This document shows positions 4,230-60,606 of a DNA stretch of 64,000 nucleotides, piece by piece. The notes beneath the pieces were generated by a model, which saw nothing but the letters and a program-made list of their open reading frames with translations, ran no database searches and had not been told where the DNA came from. The stretch comes from Capnocytophaga bilenii. GTDB taxonomy: Bacteria; Bacteroidota; Bacteroidia; Flavobacteriales; Flavobacteriaceae. Both the position numbers and the translations under genes were made by a program. How positions within the stretch are numbered: the first letter of the stretch is position 1; every line of letters begins with the position of its first letter. The stretch is from contig NZ_JAGDYP010000004.1 in the NCBI RefSeq assembly GCF_017565765.1, positions 160,606 through 224,605 on the forward strand. Reading direction: 5' to 3'.

Positions 4230-4270
4230 TAAGGGGAAGATAAGGGGAAGATAAGGGGAAGATAAGGGGT
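4230..4270. repeat. 11-bp tandem repeat TAAGGGGAAGA
   Basis: Three full copies plus a partial of the 11-base unit, directly tandem. It opens the repeat-filled spacer that runs to about 4660. Confidence 0.85.
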
Positions 4271-4280
4271 GAGTGGGGGA

Positions 4281-4327
4281 GAATTATGAATTTTGAATTA
4301 TGAATTTTGAATTATGAATTTTGAATT
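4281..4327. repeat. Heptad microsatellite GAATTWT
   Basis: About six to seven tandem 7-base units alternating GAATTAT and GAATTTT. The same heptad is found at about 36246-36260, 60050-60089, 60150-60169, 60362-60392 and 60562-60592. It is followed here by a short shared module GCTGCAAGCTTGCGCCAGC (4336-4354), also seen near 36268 and, diverged, near 60127. Confidence 0.8.
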
Positions 4328-4368
4328 GGGCACAAGCTGCAAGCTTGCGCCAGCGAGGGAGAACCTTG

Positions 4369-4412
4369 AGCGAAGGATAAGCGAAGGATAAGCGAAGGAT
4401 AAGCGAAGGATA
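4369..4412. repeat. Four tandem 11-bp units AGCGAAGGATA
   Basis: Four perfect tandem copies. Related 11-mers (AGCGAAGGATA and AGCGAAGGTTG) recur at 4502-4534 and 4564-4596, and in reverse orientation at 32821-32845 and near 60310-60345. Confidence 0.85.
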
Positions 4413-4455
4413 GTCGACGAGCTGGCACAGCCGAGTATGTGACGAAGGTTGAACA

Positions 4456-4486
4456 ACTTTGTCAAACTCTGAAAGTTTGACAAAGT
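4456..4486. repeat. Perfect 13-bp-stem hairpin, type T:A (copy 1)
   Basis: ACTTTGTCAAACT, loop CTGAA, then the perfect complement AGTTTGACAAAGT. It has no T-run after it, so it is not a standard terminator. It recurs at 4600-4630 and, with a paired base change, three times at 60 kb. Confidence 0.9.
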
Positions 4487-4523
4487 GTGTGGCGCATAGT
4501 AAGCGAAGGATAAGCGAAGGATA

Positions 4524-4563
4524 AGCGAAGGAAAGTCGGCGAGCTGGCACAGCCGAGTATGTG
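4524..4563 (+). repeat. 40-bp interspersed repeat core (copy 1)
   Basis: The 40 bases ending in GAGCTGGCACAGCCGAGTAT and GTG are identical, in reverse orientation, to 32847-32886 and 60504-60543. A near-identical copy is at 32786-32825, a diverged one at 4413-4444, and more distant relatives lie in each 110-bp unit at 48.5 kb. Confidence 0.9.
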
Positions 4564-4599
4564 ACGAAGGTTGAGCGAAGGTTGAGCGAAGGTTGAACA

Positions 4600-8285: not shown

Positions 8286-8449
8286 AAAAAAGAGGCTGTT
8301 CGAAAAGTTTTGTTTTTAAAGTAAAAATCTTATTAACAGATGAAGTATTTTCTATAACTATCTGATTATTAACATCCCCCCCTTCCCCCCTTCAAAAGGG
8401 GGGGAGATGATGCAGTTATACTATTAAAGACTTTTTGAACAGCTTTTTT
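8286..8449. repeat. Terminator-like inverted repeat split by an inserted palindromic element
   Basis: The left arm (8286-8308, ending AGGCTGTTCGAAAAGT) pairs with the right arm (8430-8449, ACTTTTTGAACAGC plus T-run). The arms lie between convergent lemA and trpA where a bidirectional terminator is expected, but are 121 bases apart. The gap holds the C/G-rich repeat at 8373-8424 and AT-rich DNA. Confidence 0.65.
8373..8424 (+). repeat. Solo copy of the CATCCCCCC palindromic repeat
   Basis: Begins CATCCCCCCC, has the hairpin CCCCCCTTC/AAAAGGGGGGG and ends in GATGCAGTTATACTA. It aligns over its whole length with the two inverted ends of the DUF559 element at 47887-47934 and 48791-48835. The ten bases upstream (TGATTATTAA) also match the outside flank of the right end there. 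Confidence 0.85.
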
Positions 8450-46566: not shown

Positions 46567-47880
46567 ATGAAAAGAACTTGGCAATTATTACTCTTCTTAA
46601 TGCCTCTATTAGCAACTTCACAAGCCAAACAGTGGTCATTAGAGGATTGCATCAACTATGCGGTGCAACACAACATTAGTGTAAAAAAAACAGAACTAAA
46701 TCAGCAAACAGCTGAAATTAACCTACAGCAGGCAAAAGACAACCGTTTGCCCACCATCAGTGGTTCGGCATCGGCAAACCTCAATAATGGTTCAGCAATT
46801 AACCAAATTACTAACGAACGAGTCTCGCGCCGTACCTTTTCCAACAACTTTGGCATATCGGCTTCTATGCCGCTCTATCAAGGCAATAAGCTCAATTTGC
46901 AAACAGACCGCAGCCAGCTGCTCTTAGAGCAAAACGAACTCTATGTGCAAGAGGCGAAGAACAACATCACCCTGAGTGTGCTCGAAGCCTATCTGCAAGC
47001 CCTCTACAGCTATGAAGGGATAGAGGTAGCCAAGAATGCAGCAAGCTCTTCTGCTGAAGAATTGAAACAAGCACAAACTAAGTTTGCCAATGGTGCGATA
47101 GCCAAGCTCAGTTTGGCAGAGATAGAAACCCGTCACGCCAATAATCAGTACGCTATCATTCAGGCTGAAAATCAATACGCCAACCGCGTGCTTACCCTCA
47201 AGCAACTTTTAGAGCTTCCCCCCAATAGCGATTTTGCTATAGCACTCAACCTGCAAGAAGATGACTATGTGGCAATTATCCCCAATAAAAACGAAGTATT
47301 TGCAGAAGCTAAACAAACGCTTCCTAATCTGAAAATCTATCAATCACAACAAAAGATAGCCGAAAAAGATGTTGCAATAGCCAGAGCGGGTGCGTTGCCT
47401 TCCCTTAGCCTGCAAGCAGGAGTCAATACAGGCTATTCCAACCTTAATGATTTGGGGTATGCTACCCAGTTAGATAGTAATTTTGGTCAGACGATAGGCG
47501 CTTCGCTCAATATACCTATTTTTTCGCAAAACAAAAATAAGAGCAATGTCAAGTTAGCAAAGCTTACACAACAGCAGGCAGTATTAGAAGAACAACAAGC
47601 CGAAAAAGAGCTTTATGCTAAAATAGAAACCGCTTGGCAAAATGCCACCACACACCAAGCACAACAAGCGGCTTCGCGTACAGCTCGCGACAATGCCAAA
47701 TTGGCATATGATTTAGCAGTGAAAAAACACGAGTTCGGCGGACTTACCAATACCGAACTGCTCGTAAGCCAAAATTCCTACCTAAGTGCAGAACAAACTT
47801 ATCTACAGAATAAATATATGTCGGCACTATATGTTCAGTTGCTCAATTTTTATCAAGGAAAAGAAATAACATTTCCATAG
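46567..47880 (+). CDS. TolC-family outer membrane efflux protein
   Basis: 437 residues. Signal peptide (MKRTWQLLLFLMPLLATSQA), then two TolC repeats of long helices and strands (WSLEDCINYAVQHNISVKK and later LAYDLAVKKHEFGGLTNTEL). It is the outer-membrane channel of a tripartite pump whose adaptor and ATPase follow at 48929 and 50159. The expected neighbour starts only after about 1050 bases, because the DUF559 element is in between. Confidence 0.93.
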   Translation: MKRTWQLLLFLMPLLATSQAKQWSLEDCINYAVQHNISVKKTELNQQTAEINLQQAKDNRLPTISGSASANLNNGSAINQITNERVSRRTFSNNFGISASMPLYQGNKLNLQTDRSQLLLEQNELYVQEAKNNITLSVLEAYLQALYSYEGIEVAKNAASSSAEELKQAQTKFANGAIAKLSLAEIETRHANNQYAIIQAENQYANRVLTLKQLLELPPNSDFAIALNLQEDDYVAIIPNKNEVFAEAKQTLPNLKIYQSQQKIAEKDVAIARAGALPSLSLQAGVNTGYSNLNDLGYATQLDSNFGQTIGASLNIPIFSQNKNKSNVKLAKLTQQQAVLEEQQAEKELYAKIETAWQNATTHQAQQAASRTARDNAKLAYDLAVKKHEFGGLTNTELLVSQNSYLSAEQTYLQNKYMSALYVQLLNFYQGKEITFP

Positions 47881-47886
47881 AAGAGA

Positions 47887-47934
47887 CATCCCCCCTTCCC
47901 CCCTTCAAAGGGGGGGAGATGCTGCAATTGTACT
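47887..47934 (+). repeat. Left inverted end of the DUF559 element
   Basis: CATCCCCCCTTCCCCCCTTC with hairpin to GGGGGGG, then GATGCTGCAATTGTACTA. It begins 7 bases after the tolC stop. Aligns with the reverse complement of 48791-48835 at about 43 of 49 positions. Confidence 0.9.
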
Positions 47935-48058
47935 AATAAAAACTTTCTAGGTAGTCTTATGCGATGCAAAAGCGAAAATACTCCTGTTATTCAGGAATTA
48001 TTTTTTTAACTCTTGATTCATATATAGAAAATGTTAAAAAATGAAATATTAATCATTT

Positions 48059-48460
48059 ATGCCGAATAAAATTATTCCATATAATTCTAAACTAAAAGAT
48101 TTTGCACGATATTTGCGAAATCATAGTACATTAAGTGAAATAATTCTTTGGAATCACATAAGGAAAAAAGCCTTAGGTGTAGAATTTCACAGGCAAGTTC
48201 CTATTTTGGAGTATATAGTAGATTTCTATTGCCATGAATTGGCTTTAGCAATTGAAGTAGATGGTAATATACACGAATTTAGTTTTTTAGAAGATTGTCA
48301 GCGACAAGAAGCTATAGAAAAATATGGAGTAACATTTGTTCGCTTTTCAAATGAAGAAATAAATACTAATCTCTTTGAAGTGATATCATTACTAAAAAGT
48401 ATTGTTAATACACTGAAAGAAGATAGAATTGAGGAAAATGAGAGAATTCCACAAGAATAG
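48059..48460 (+). CDS. DUF559 (Vsr-like endonuclease-fold) protein
   Basis: 133 residues. DUF559 is a small PD-(D/E)XK/Vsr-like nuclease-fold family. The core is visible: EYIVDFYCHELALAIEVDGN with Asp55, Glu66 and Asp68 as likely catalytic acids, preceded by the basic helix RNHSTLSEIILWNHIRKKAL and followed by GVTFVRFSNEEI. The ending is a charged tail. Members are often solitary or near repeats. Here it lies inside an operon and between two inverted palindromic repeats, immediately followed by a tandem repeat array whose units begin with the same core as the repeat ends. DNA nicking or cleavage is plausible but not shown. Confidence 0.85.
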   Translation: MPNKIIPYNSKLKDFARYLRNHSTLSEIILWNHIRKKALGVEFHRQVPILEYIVDFYCHELALAIEVDGNIHEFSFLEDCQRQEAIEKYGVTFVRFSNEEINTNLFEVISLLKSIVNTLKEDRIEENERIPQE

Positions 48461-48461
48461 T

Positions 48462-48790
48462 ACAATTGCGGCATATCCCCCTTTGAAGAAAGTCCGTGAG
48501 CTGGTGCGGCGGAGTATGTGTTAGGGGAATTTTAATAATCATATGAAATTGCCCAAAAGTCCTTATACAGAACAATTGCGGCATATCCCCTTTTAAAGAA
48601 AGTCCGTGAGCTGGTGCAGCGGAGTATGTGTTAGGGGAATTTTAATAATCATATGAAATTGCCCAAAAGTCCTTATACAGAACAATTGCGGCATATCCCC
48701 TTTTAAAGGAAGTCCGTGAGCTGATGCAGCGGAGTATGTGTTAGGGAATTTTAATAATCATATGAAATTGCTCAAAAGTCTTTATACAGA
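48462..48790 (+). repeat. 110-bp tandem repeat array (three units)
   Basis: Units start at 48462, 48572 and 48682, with periods 110, 110 and 109; the start word ACAATTGCGGCATATCCCC occurs a fourth time in the right end at 48791. Each unit has an internal segment AGTCCGTGAGCTGGTGCAGC related to the 40-bp repeat core at 4.5 and 60.5 kb. No spacers or CRISPR layout. Confidence 0.95.
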
Positions 48791-48835
48791 ACAATTGCGG
48801 CATATCCCCCCTTTGAAGGGGGGTAGGGGGGGATG
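48791..48835 (-). repeat. Right inverted end of the DUF559 element
   Basis: ACAATTGCGGCATATCCCCC, hairpin to GAAGGGGGG, then TAGGGGGGGATG. Reverse complement matches 47887-47934. The outside flank TTAATAATCA matches the flank of the solo copy at 8.4 kb. Confidence 0.9.
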
Positions 48836-48928
48836 TTAATAATCAAACTTTTTAAACAGTTTAAGGGAAAATGTCTCTTAAATAAATACTTACACAAACA
48901 TTTATATATTAATTTTAGAACTTACACA

Positions 48929-50158
48929 ATGAAAAAGAAAATCAAAAAAATCATTATTATAGCCCTATTAGCTGTAGTGGCTTTTGCAGCATATCACTTC
49001 TTTATGAAAGAAAAACCAATGCCTATTGTACTCCAAACCGATGAAGTTACCCAAGGTGACGTTACTACCGAAGTAACCGCTACGGGTAGTGTACAACCGG
49101 TAGACGAGGTGGAAGTAGGTACCCAAGTATCGGGTTTGGTGAGCAAAATATATGTAGATTACAATAGCCAAGTAAAAAAAGGACAGCTCTTGGCAGAGCT
49201 CGATAAAACAAATCTACAAGAGAACGTTATCAATGCTACTGCCAACTACAATTCGGCACTTAACGAACTGAACTACTATCAGCAAAACTACGACCGCCAA
49301 AAGAAAATGTACGATGCCCAAGTAATTAGCAAATCCGATTACGAGCAGGCTACTTACCAGCTCACCAATGCCAAAGCAATGGTTACCCAACGCCTTACGA
49401 CCCTCAATCAGGCGAAAACGAACTTAGGTTATGCGAATATCTATTCGCCTATCGATGGGATTATCCTTAGCAAAGAGGTAGAAGAAGGGCAAACAGTGGC
49501 TGCTTCTATAAGTGCGCCTACACTCTTCAAAATAGCTAAGAACATCAAGCGTATGCAGGTAGAGGTAAATGTAGACGAAGCCGATATAGGACAAGTGAAA
49601 GTAGGACAACGCGTGAGCTTTACCGTTGATGCTTACCCTCAAGAGGAATTTTCAGGACGCGTTACCCAAGTGCGCCTATCGCCCACCACCTCGTCCAACG
49701 TAGTAACTTACAAGGTGATAGTAGAGGCAGAAAACCCCGATGAAAAGCTAAAACCTGGGCTTACTGCTACCATTGCTATTTATACCAATGAACTAAAAGG
49801 CGTAACCATAGTGCCCGCTAAGGCTATCAACTTTACGCCCGATACCGATGTGCTAATGCAATATTACGCCCAAAAAGATATTACAGCCGAAGCTCCTAAA
49901 GTACAGCATGGCAAGGGTAAAAACAAATACGTGTGGGTAGTGAATGCCGATGGCAGTCTTGCTCAAAAAGCCGTAACCATAGGCAGCAATGATGGTATCA
50001 ACGTGCAAGTAGTAAGCGGACTAACGGTTGGCGAAAAAGTAGCTACCAGCTTGCAGGGTAGCGCTCCGCAAATAGCAGGAGGCGATAAGAAAAGTGGAGA
50101 GAGCAGCAGTCCGTTTATGCCAAAACGCCCTAGTAGAAACAATTCAAAAGCTAAATAA
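48929..50158 (+). CDS. Periplasmic adaptor (MacA/HlyD-type) of a tripartite efflux pump
   Basis: 409 residues from ATG 48929; an upstream in-frame stretch is just spacer. One N-terminal membrane helix (IIIIALLAVVAFAAYHFF), lipoyl domain (VGTQVSGLVSKIYVDYNSQV), coiled coil, then GYANIYSPIDGIILSKEVEE and the C-terminal barrel and membrane-proximal domains. MacA-type adaptors link the MacB ATPase/permease to TolC. The ATPase gene begins at the base after the stop. About 90 bases of DNA outside the right end of the DUF559 element precede it. Confidence 0.93.
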   Translation: MKKKIKKIIIIALLAVVAFAAYHFFMKEKPMPIVLQTDEVTQGDVTTEVTATGSVQPVDEVEVGTQVSGLVSKIYVDYNSQVKKGQLLAELDKTNLQENVINATANYNSALNELNYYQQNYDRQKKMYDAQVISKSDYEQATYQLTNAKAMVTQRLTTLNQAKTNLGYANIYSPIDGIILSKEVEEGQTVAASISAPTLFKIAKNIKRMQVEVNVDEADIGQVKVGQRVSFTVDAYPQEEFSGRVTQVRLSPTTSSNVVTYKVIVEAENPDEKLKPGLTATIAIYTNELKGVTIVPAKAINFTPDTDVLMQYYAQKDITAEAPKVQHGKGKNKYVWVVNADGSLAQKAVTIGSNDGINVQVVSGLTVGEKVATSLQGSAPQIAGGDKKSGESSSPFMPKRPSRNNSKAK

Positions 50159-60049: not shown

Positions 60050-60089
60050 GAATTTTGAATTCTGAATTTTGAATTTTGAATTTTGAATT
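60050..60089. repeat. GAATTTT heptad array
   Basis: Tandem GAATTTT/GAATTCT units. Further arrays lie at 60150-60169, 60362-60392 and 60562-60592 in this spacer, each in front of a GGGGGTAGAAAA segment and a hairpin. Confidence 0.85.
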
Positions 60090-60091
60090 GG

Positions 60092-60250
60092 GGGTGTCCG
60101 AAAAGTTTTGTTTTGTGAGGGCGATTGGCTGCAAGCTCGCACCAGCGGTGAATTTTGAATTTTGAATTGGGGGTAGAAAAACTTTGGCAAACTCTGAAAG
60201 TTTGCCAAAGTGTGTGGCGCAATCGTGCTTTTAAAACTTTTCGGACACCC
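60092..60250. repeat. 18-bp perfect inverted terminal repeats, 159-bp unit
   Basis: GGGTGTCCGAAAAGTTTT (60092-60109) is the exact reverse complement of 60233-60250. Between them lie a CTGCAAGCTCGCACCAGCG module, heptads and one covarying hairpin. Related arms occur at 8293-8308 and 35571-35586. The form is MITE-like. Confidence 0.8.
60181..60211. repeat. Perfect 13-bp-stem hairpin, type G:C (copy 1)
   Basis: ACTTTGGCAAACT, loop CTGAA, AGTTTGCCAAAGT. Same as the hairpins at 4.5 kb but with the T:A pair at stem position 7 replaced by G:C on both strands. Confidence 0.9.
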
Positions 60251-60252
60251 TC

Positions 60253-60319
60253 TGTGTGGCGCAATCTCTTCAAAAAAGGAGGTATGTCGCAATTGTACTA
60301 TTAATTCGCTTATCCTTCG
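60253..60319. repeat. 67-bp direct repeat, copy 1
   Basis: Identical to 60436-60502 (offset 183). It includes GGCGCAATCTCTTC and GGTATGTCGCAATTGTACTA, the reverse form of the start of the 48.5-kb tandem units. Confidence 0.9.
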
Positions 60320-60405
60320 CTAAACCTTCGCTAAACCTTCGCTCAAGGTTCGCTGGGGAATAATTTTGAATTTTGAATTCTGAATTTTGAATTGGGGGTA
60401 GAAAA

Positions 60406-60436
60406 ACTTTGGCAAACTCTGAAAGTTTGCCAAAGT
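60406..60436. repeat. Perfect 13-bp-stem hairpin, type G:C (copy 2)
   Basis: Same as 60181-60211. Confidence 0.9.
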
Positions 60437-60502
60437 GTGTGGCGCAATCTCTTCAAAAAAGGAGGTATGTCGCAATTGTACTATTAATTCGCTTATCCTT
60501 CG
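60436..60502. repeat. 67-bp direct repeat, copy 2
   Basis: Identical to 60253-60319, directly after a hairpin and before the 40-bp core. Confidence 0.9.
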
Positions 60503-60503
60503 T

Positions 60504-60543
60504 CACATACTCGGCTGTGCCAGCTCGCCGACTTTCCTTCGCT
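60504..60543 (-). repeat. 40-bp interspersed repeat core
   Basis: Identical to 32847-32886 and the reverse complement of 4524-4563. Confidence 0.9.
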
Positions 60544-60606
60544 TATCCTTCGCTCGCGAATAATTATGAATTATGAATTATGAATTTTGAATTGGGGGGT
60601 AGAAAA

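Follow-up and report, generated by a model that had tools for sequence, protein, structure and literature searches.

How did a gene for a DUF559 protein come to lie between two efflux genes of Capnocytophaga bilenii, and do the GC-rich hairpins around it belong to it? The locus lies in a 64,000-nt stretch of contig NZ_JAGDYP010000004.1, referred to here as the window. An earlier note regarded it as a REP/RAYT-like mobile system inserted into an operon, in which the DUF559 protein may move or maintain the repeat family.

A DUF559 gene between inverted hairpins

The unit and its neighbours comprise the following features.

46567..47880, + strand: tolC-like outer membrane efflux gene (PF02321), left neighbour
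47886..47934, + strand: left hairpin arm, inverted-repeat match with the right arm
48059..48460, + strand: DUF559 gene, 133 aa (PF04480, E 4.4e-27)
48462..48809, + strand: tandem array, 3.2 copies of a 110-bp unit, 96% matches (Tandem Repeats Finder)
48788..48836, + strand: right hairpin arm, inverted-repeat match with the left arm, overlapping the array end
48929..50158, + strand: HlyD/MacA-like adaptor gene (PF16576), right neighbour

The gene passes the curated PF04480 cut-off of 20.6 bits with a score of 94.5, and its immediate neighbours are the efflux genes. As the earlier note had described, inverted hairpin arms with outward tips surround it: the arms are 49 nt each and 82% complementary (96% over a 26-nt core), and both contain CCCCCC-TTTGAA-GGGGGG as a palindrome, with outward-directed tails that are runs of C or G. 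The left arm consists, in order, of the outward C-run tail ACATCCCCCC, TT, the hairpin CCCCCCTTCAAAGGGGGG and the foot GAGATG, and it is recovered by the palindrome pattern at 47898-47915 (- strand) with 0 mismatches. The right arm consists of the hairpin CCCCCCTTTGAAGGGGGG followed by the outward G-run tail GGGGGGGATGT.

The observation that three 110-bp units share their starting word with the repeat end is also confirmed. The word AATTGCGGCATATCCCC begins every unit of the array and the right arm, and the left arm has an inverted version with 2 mismatches. We read the 110-bp unit as a long-loop variant of the arm repeat. Distant versions of the word, with 3 mismatches, occur at 60278 and 60461 of the window, which also has clustered 7- and 11-bp tandem repeats at 4230-4596 and 60050-60593. 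Stable single-strand folding beyond composition is unsupported, as three stretches of the arms and array, treated as ssDNA, lacked extra stability relative to same-composition shuffles (z -1.4, -0.9 and -0.9).

Empty sites in relatives

Of the 20 genomes in the junction survey, seven without an adaptor match at the cut-off were left out. Of the 12 relatives with a match, one (L079) is at a contig end and unreadable, so 11 were used. DUF559 is found at the tolC-adaptor junction in 0/11, and all 11 join both genes without it. This was the check that had been proposed for the tolC-macA junction, and its outcome supports the earlier claim of an insertion into the gene pair. By gene order, the DUF559 unit of the window is evidently an insertion between tolC and the adaptor gene.

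At the tolC end, a solo C/G repeat without the gene is present in four of the relatives (L069, L070, L071 and L073). The spacers of the other seven likewise lack DUF559 and measure 83-228 nt as printed, including some coding ends. In the four relatives, the solo repeat apparently provides the final codons and stop of tolC (seen by eye in L070).

A second vacant site is found beside a tatA-like gene, which adjoins a free-standing DUF559 unit in genome G206. The site is empty in the window genome (41 nt as printed) and in G023 (157 nt), and is occupied by other sequence in G207, G210 and G215. Genome comparison establishes that the gene and its hairpins have inserted at sites that are empty in relatives. 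No exact element junction was found, and inspection by eye of the solo copies of the window genome and of the leuS and tolC sites gave nothing consistent with a target-site duplication.

Hairpins beside DUF559 domains across bacteria

The earlier note predicted that DUF559 genes elsewhere would be associated with the repeat, and took a lack of such association as grounds to abandon its proposal. The association proves to be strong in many genera. A first set comprises 81 non-redundant DUF559 domains from Flavobacteriaceae and the window's genus, which remained of 101 domain rows once duplicates, weak fragments and loci with <200 nt on one side had been removed. Its loci represent part of all hits, namely 29 fetched automatically, the next 40 list entries lacking a locus, and the loci of the genus and of the window genome itself. 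The feature scored was a pyrimidine/purine hairpin, a criterion fixed after examples had been seen. Of the 81 domains, 58 have such a hairpin to the left, 49 have one to the right and 40 have both (limit 350 nt), compared with 5/152 control windows farther out from the same domains.

The second set, a genome-contig scan that yielded 75 domains from 73/80 loci, is mostly Bacteroidota and includes some Acidobacteria, Calditrichaeota and Neomarinimicrobiota, one Akkermansiaceae genome and one Acaryochloris genome. Hairpins flank 52/75 of these domains on both sides and are missing from both sides of 3/75; removal of the five domains common to the first set gives 48/70 and 3/70. For the full second set, hairpin density is 4.46 per kb near DUF559 and 1.00 per kb in the remaining intergenic DNA of these loci, of which 12/96 segments contain a hairpin.

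Plasmids and further chromosomes extend the sample. Among 10 plasmid loci, drawn from 42 records (six cyanobacterial, two Deinococcus, and one each from Sphingomonas and Azospirillum), a hairpin is marked on at least one side in 10/10 and on both sides in 6/10, as raw counts without control windows. Seven chromosomal loci were printed, of which L226, L227 and L228 repeat second-set loci and four count as new; hairpins are present on both sides in two of the four and absent from two (L222 and L230). The pairing of DUF559 with hairpins recurs in several phyla, the hairpin sequences differing. Counted in this way across genomes, the association is general and spans many genera and several phyla.

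Arrangement of the flanking hairpins

Matching flanks occur in more than one orientation. At free-standing loci, strong left-right matches (score >=18) are direct in 59/112 and inverted in 28/112, compared with 17/666 and 20/666 when partners are taken from other loci and with 1/106 and 0/106 at 700-1050 nt out. Since direct flanks are commoner than inverted ones, the inverted flanks of the window represent one arrangement among several. The expectation that DUF559 genes would generally lie between inverted copies thus holds for the 28/112 and fails as a universal rule, direct matches being twice as common. Left-right matches are less regular at loci in long frames (inverted 8/38, direct 4/38). 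Outward polarity of the tails on both sides also fails, as it is seen on the right only (34/47 in the first set; 28 versus 28 on the left).

Some loci have particularly clean ends. Two Pontibacter loci, L186 and L190, have an insertion-sequence-like organization, with the gene enclosed by inverted hairpins that end in CCAACCACCCC...GGGGTGGTTGG, and L242 (D. proteolyticus) has inverted ends of ~40 bp by eye. At L116, L159 and L214 the gene is embedded in an array or has direct copies of a gene-less doublet on its two sides.

The neighbours of these genes vary. On Deinococcus plasmids of two species, DUF559 occupies two different junctions of the same 4-hydroxyphenylacetate genes (hpa operon; L241 and L242), on the opposite strand and with hairpins present. 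On cyanobacterial plasmids it adjoins an annotated BREX PglX methylase (L237), has a short DUF1156 gene on one side and a hypothetical gene on the other (L238), or falls within a large annotated coding sequence (L240). In three species of the window's genus (L061, L063 and L064 in G202, G203 and G213), it adjoins recurring SusD-like or oxidoreductase-like genes at junctions that differ, as judged by eye.

In-frame insertions in host genes

Many strong DUF559 matches lie in frames of 850-1250 aa. The domain is found inside leuS at 19 loci, inside metH at 4 and inside recG at 4, here between the DEQHR and TATPIPRT motifs. It is N-terminal in hemD (6 loci) and C-terminal in hisD (1), and is also in frame in ileS, hsdR and two other restriction-modification genes. 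Host genes were labeled by motif or by eye, and a Pfam scan confirmed one example of each and two of the restriction-modification group. Matches to NCBIfam models exceed a cut-off for leuS, metH, recG, hisD, ileS and hsdR, and stay below the model's own cut-off for hemD. Hairpins are often translated in frame at the insert borders, yielding peptides such as PLAPSKGGG and PPSGARG. The leuS, metH, recG, hemD and hisD inserts have no intervening stops, with DUF559 flush with the host domains, and as read from the sequence they are apparently not spliced.

The leuS site is the most informative. The window genome's own leuS carries an insert and was its sole match in the leuS search. Among 19 leuS genes from 20 genomes of the genus, the stretch from GKSVG to FTTRPD measures 167-219 aa in the seven with an insert and 15-26 aa in the 12 that are empty, L091 (18 aa) among them. 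A hairpin is present in 18/19 leuS genes with an insert, two or more in 9, and in 1/12 empty leuS genes; because the empty stretches are much shorter, the inserts should also be compared with the 5/152 background. A host palindrome occupies the insertion site of one empty leuS, and solo repeats are found in frame just before KMSKS in 4/16 LeuRS proteins (by eye). In-frame insertions in essential genes, including leuS of the window genome, were not part of the earlier proposal and point to homing-like behavior. A weaker match in the same genome (L003; G000, C15:244673-244864, outside the window; E 7e-10) lies in a 1255-aa frame and was set aside as a member, being part of a larger frame with no C/G hairpins seen beside the match.

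History of the inserts and nature of the nuclease

In a midpoint-rooted tree, a clade of 28 domains (support 0.985) consists of exactly all leuS, metH, recG and hisD inserts. The metH, recG and hemD inserts are each monophyletic; the leuS inserts are not, because other host groups nest among them. Insert and host identities are also out of step. Between the window genome and G023, the leuS host sequences are 93% identical and the inserts 52%, while in another pair the values are 78 and 70%. Topology tests reject the host tree for the insert alignment (dlnL 116, AU p 3.7e-8) and the insert tree for the host alignment (dlnL 439, p 2e-69), and non-synonymous counts agree with the discordance in leuS. 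These alignments demonstrate that insert and host gene have discordant histories, as expected if inserts reached the same site repeatedly. The pattern is hard to reconcile with vertical descent and losses alone, although the insert alignment is short and fast-evolving.

Values of dN/dS for the nuclease are 0.10-0.18 in six pairs, rough figures since dS exceeds 1.2 in 4/6, and at the codon level they demonstrate purifying selection. Profiles of relatives match two structures, PDB 3hrl (endonuclease-like protein) and 3r3p, described as a 'mobile intron protein' (E 1.2e-5, and 0.0016 with another profile), which we take to be the Vsr-like EDxHD homing endonuclease I-Bth0305I. Residues D55, E66, G69, D79 and R82 are invariant in both DUF559 alignments, and D68 and H72 are invariant in one and conserved at >=90% in the other. 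An AlphaFold2 model of the window protein (pLDDT 88.3, pTM 0.80) has the order HH-EEE-H-E-HH, and the protein is expected to adopt a Vsr-like PD-(D/E)XK nuclease fold. In Caulobacter, the available portion of one report (PMC12907096) describes a DUF559 protein, VsrA (CCNA_02930), that cells require for the DNA damage response they mount after losing a cytosine methylase; the family may thus act on DNA in vivo.

Dispersed copies and their co-occurrence with the gene

Copies of the repeat are numerous, in answer to the check set out in the earlier note on whether solo copies exceed expectation. The window has seven matches to the palindrome (<=3 mismatches; 0.02 expected), and the window genome has 47 on both strands at the same threshold, where the reversed pattern gives 0. 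For the core word of the 110-bp unit, the window genome has 28 occurrences, 25 of them outside the array, G206 has 16, G204 (a genome lacking DUF559) has two and the other 17 genomes of the genus have none (reversed control 0). One solo copy in the window illustrates a further feature.

8385..8403, - strand: solo hairpin copy (L013), within a MITE-like repeat of ~157 bp that has terminal inverted repeats of its own

Seven solo copies in the window genome sit inside such ~157-bp repeats; as these have ends of their own, another transposase may have spread them. At L015, L016 and L018 of the same genome, the C/G hairpin adjoins a different repeat family (AGAGTTTGCCAAAGT / ACTTTGGCAAACT) where the usual right half would be.

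Genomes with the gene tend to have more hairpins. Within the genus, counts are higher in seven genomes with free-standing DUF559 than in eight with none or a degraded copy (one-sided Mann-Whitney p 0.003). Adding five leuS-only genomes as controls gives p 0.007, and counting them as DUF559 carriers gives p 0.027. After subtraction of 8 to 16 flanking matches per genome, p is 0.03-0.05, or 0.06-0.09 with the leuS-only genomes as controls. Across Flavobacteriaceae, where 64/199 genomes have DUF559 at E below 1e-20, one exact hairpin pattern is found in 16/199 genomes, and 14/16 have the gene (Fisher p 2.9e-6). Both hairpin patterns came from hairpins beside DUF559, so that copies beside the gene count in its favor and these co-occurrence tests are biased.

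Copies away from the gene address this bias in part. The gene is present in 6/8 genomes with a listed copy >2 kb from DUF559, compared with 64/199 overall (p 0.014), and in 6/6 with two or more such copies (p 0.0009); here "away" rests on the first places listed per genome, and the co-occurrence statistics ignore kinship. The places listed for genome G094, for example, include seven copies scattered over six contigs, one copy adjoining the DUF559 gene of that genome. Hairpins are also found without DUF559, with 37 matches in G209 and one place each, among those listed, in G024 and G105. The co-occurrence of DUF559 with dispersed gene-less copies is suggestive rather than strong. The proposal that the protein moves the solo copies has weak support from the 6/8 genomes (p 0.014).

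Gene-bearing copies show no sign of multiplication, in that within-genome domain pairs reach at most 59% identity (domains fetched from 14 genomes). The only exact copies among those compared are two identical domains 1392 bp apart at L134 (G073:C2:234561 and 235953), a recent tandem duplication.

A model for spread by cutting and repair, and its alternatives

The reading we favor, with a probability of roughly 0.6, is that the window unit is one representative of a widespread selfish mobile element, which consists of a DUF559 gene with GC-rich hairpins at its limits and spreads by cutting and repair. The DUF559 protein would cut or nick DNA at an unoccupied target, either a conserved gene site or a resident hairpin, and repair from an occupied copy would then install the gene with its hairpins. 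The same enzyme could disperse gene-less hairpins, as solo copies or doublets, in trans, in the manner proposed for RAYTs and REPs. Insertions within genes would survive only if the frame is kept and the site lies in a loop, so that the element would have an uninterrupted reading frame and appear in LeuRS, MetH, RecG and others as an additional domain. Cleavage, its target, copying by repair, movement and mobilization of solo copies in trans are all steps that we infer. Counting against this model are the single and diverse gene-bearing copies, the seven solo copies within MITE-like repeats, the failure to find a target-site duplication or exact junction, hairpins in genomes devoid of the gene, the drop in co-occurrence once flanking copies are omitted, the excess of direct over inverted flanks, left-hand tails of no preferred polarity and the hairpin-free loci L222 and L230.

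An unlikely alternative, yet one that several observations fit, is that DUF559 is a passenger in a hotspot. Hairpins spread by MITEs or other transposases would be recombination-prone and gather DUF559 by homologous exchange, with the protein inert on them. The seven solo hairpins within MITE-like repeats, the gene-less repeats at the tolC junction of four relatives and the richness of G209 in hairpins with DUF559 absent are all compatible with this idea, as are direct-repeat flanks, which recombination between copies could produce. The part available of a report on Legionella (PMC12308824) describes a recombination hotspot in the form of a repeated segment that carries a transposase and DUF559. 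However, the empty leuS genes are mostly hairpin-free and the inserts bring hairpins with them, hairpins occur in few other intergenic segments (12/96) and near only 1/12 Y1 transposases (within 500 nt), and the same pairing recurs in several phyla with hairpins that differ in sequence.

Rather less probable is that DUF559 homes into conserved gene sites only, hairpins serving as preferred landing pads and not as its ends. Resident solo repeats at the tolC junction and the host palindrome in one empty leuS would be such pads, and gene-bearing copies are single and diverse, as this explanation has it. Against it, most empty leuS sites are without such a hairpin, and the clean elements L186, L190 and L242 have matching inverted hairpins with tails at both ends.

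It is improbable that DUF559 is simply a Vsr-like mismatch-repair or defense enzyme beside which hairpins are incidental or regulate expression. The Caulobacter VsrA requirement in a methylase-less damage response, in the portion of that report at hand (PMC12907096), would suit such a role, as would weak PADLOC matches of the window gene to a type II enzyme and DpdF and the three in-frame hosts that are restriction-modification genes (L185, L204 and L217). A repair or restriction role leaves unexplained the in-frame leuS, metH, recG, hemD and hisD insertions with their hairpins and discordant histories, and the window gene has efflux genes as its immediate neighbors.

Very little speaks for a true REP/RAYT system or ordinary transcription terminators: inverted hairpins beside a nuclease gene with dispersed copies resemble REPtrons, hairpins near gene ends look terminator-like and Y1 transposases are present in 8/12 genomes checked, but Y1 was not found (E 0.001) in the window genome, G203, G129 or G120, the first three of which have many copies, and hairpins occur inside reading frames beside inserts and, near DUF559, are 4.5 times as dense as in other intergenic DNA.

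Relation to known systems

The selfish-element reading combines features of several known systems. REPtrons, as described in the accessible part of one paper (PMC3733652), consist of a nuclease gene between short hairpins, single-copy and diverse per genome, with hairpins that are dispersed and sometimes lie inside genes. The window unit is similar in that its gene is flanked by hairpins also found as dispersed copies; it differs in that the enzyme is a DUF559/Vsr-like nuclease rather than a Y1 HUH transposase and the gene itself enters reading frames in frame. A search of the window genome for Y1/HUH transposases (PF01797) found none at E 0.001, and hairpins are scarce at Y1 loci elsewhere; a RAYT is accordingly rejected as the enzyme in that genome. 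The term REP/RAYT-like, applied in the earlier note, stands as an analogy and not as a statement of mechanism, since the enzyme is missing and the relatives of DUF559 include the 'mobile intron protein'.

Homing endonucleases of the EDxHD type (I-Bth0305I) are similar in sequence, through 3r3p, and in behavior, with patchy occupation of one conserved site (leuS, 7 occupied and 12 empty) and a history discordant with that of the host. They differ in that no intron or intein is seen around DUF559, which is read as an unspliced extra domain, is bounded by hairpins and is linked to dispersed hairpins. Homing endonuclease genes spare the host coding sequence, a feature that the leuS, metH, recG, hemD and hisD inserts fail. 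The unit works like REPtrons and homing endonuclease genes yet fails one defining feature of each, the HUH enzyme and the sparing of host coding sequence, respectively.

Other systems share single features. We know of no enzyme for the Rickettsia palindromic elements (RPEs), whereas the DUF559 element has a nuclease domain between its palindromes. Both place palindromic repeats in frame within genes, as the accessible part of that same paper notes for RPEs (PMC3733652). Insertion sequences and MITEs are similar in that L186, L190 and L242 have a gene between terminal inverted repeats and gene-less doublets are MITE-like; the DUF559 unit is unlike insertion sequences in being without a known transposase, a target-site duplication among the sites inspected, or near-identical dispersed gene-bearing copies among those compared. 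Caulobacter VsrA has the DUF559 domain and genetic evidence of provoking DNA damage, and is proposed, unlike the element, to be a mismatch-repair enzyme tied to a methylase, to judge from the available part of the report (PMC12907096); the strings 'palindrom' and 'transpos' are absent from its text. In Legionella pneumophila, DUF559 lies within repeated DNA, in three segments that recombine with each other (PMC12308824, in part). These segments are larger and include a transposase, and the same part of that report names no hairpins, in-frame insertion or DUF559-driven movement. The DUF559 literature covered, available in part and with most subscription journals outside it, gave no account of hairpin ends, in-frame insertion or DUF559-driven movement.

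Implications

The presence of DUF559, whole and in frame, inside essential enzymes, and its position beside hairpins in many bacteria, suggest an overlooked kind of selfish mobile DNA, and there is a fair chance that the element deserves a class of its own. More tentatively, at somewhat less than even odds, DUF559 nucleases in several phyla may constitute a separate class of mobile elements that have C/G hairpin ends, home unspliced and in frame into essential enzymes and are the source of many scattered GC-rich hairpins.

DUF559 proteins are widespread without a settled role, and GC-rich hairpin repeats are common, often with no known enzyme. A link between them would provide a testable function for both. 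The in-frame inserts suggest that a selfish nuclease can persist as a loop domain of LeuRS or RecG without introns or inteins. To our knowledge, such persistence of mobile DNA in coding sequence has not previously been described together with its enzyme, and it would account for unexpected additional domains in tRNA synthetases and helicases as annotated.
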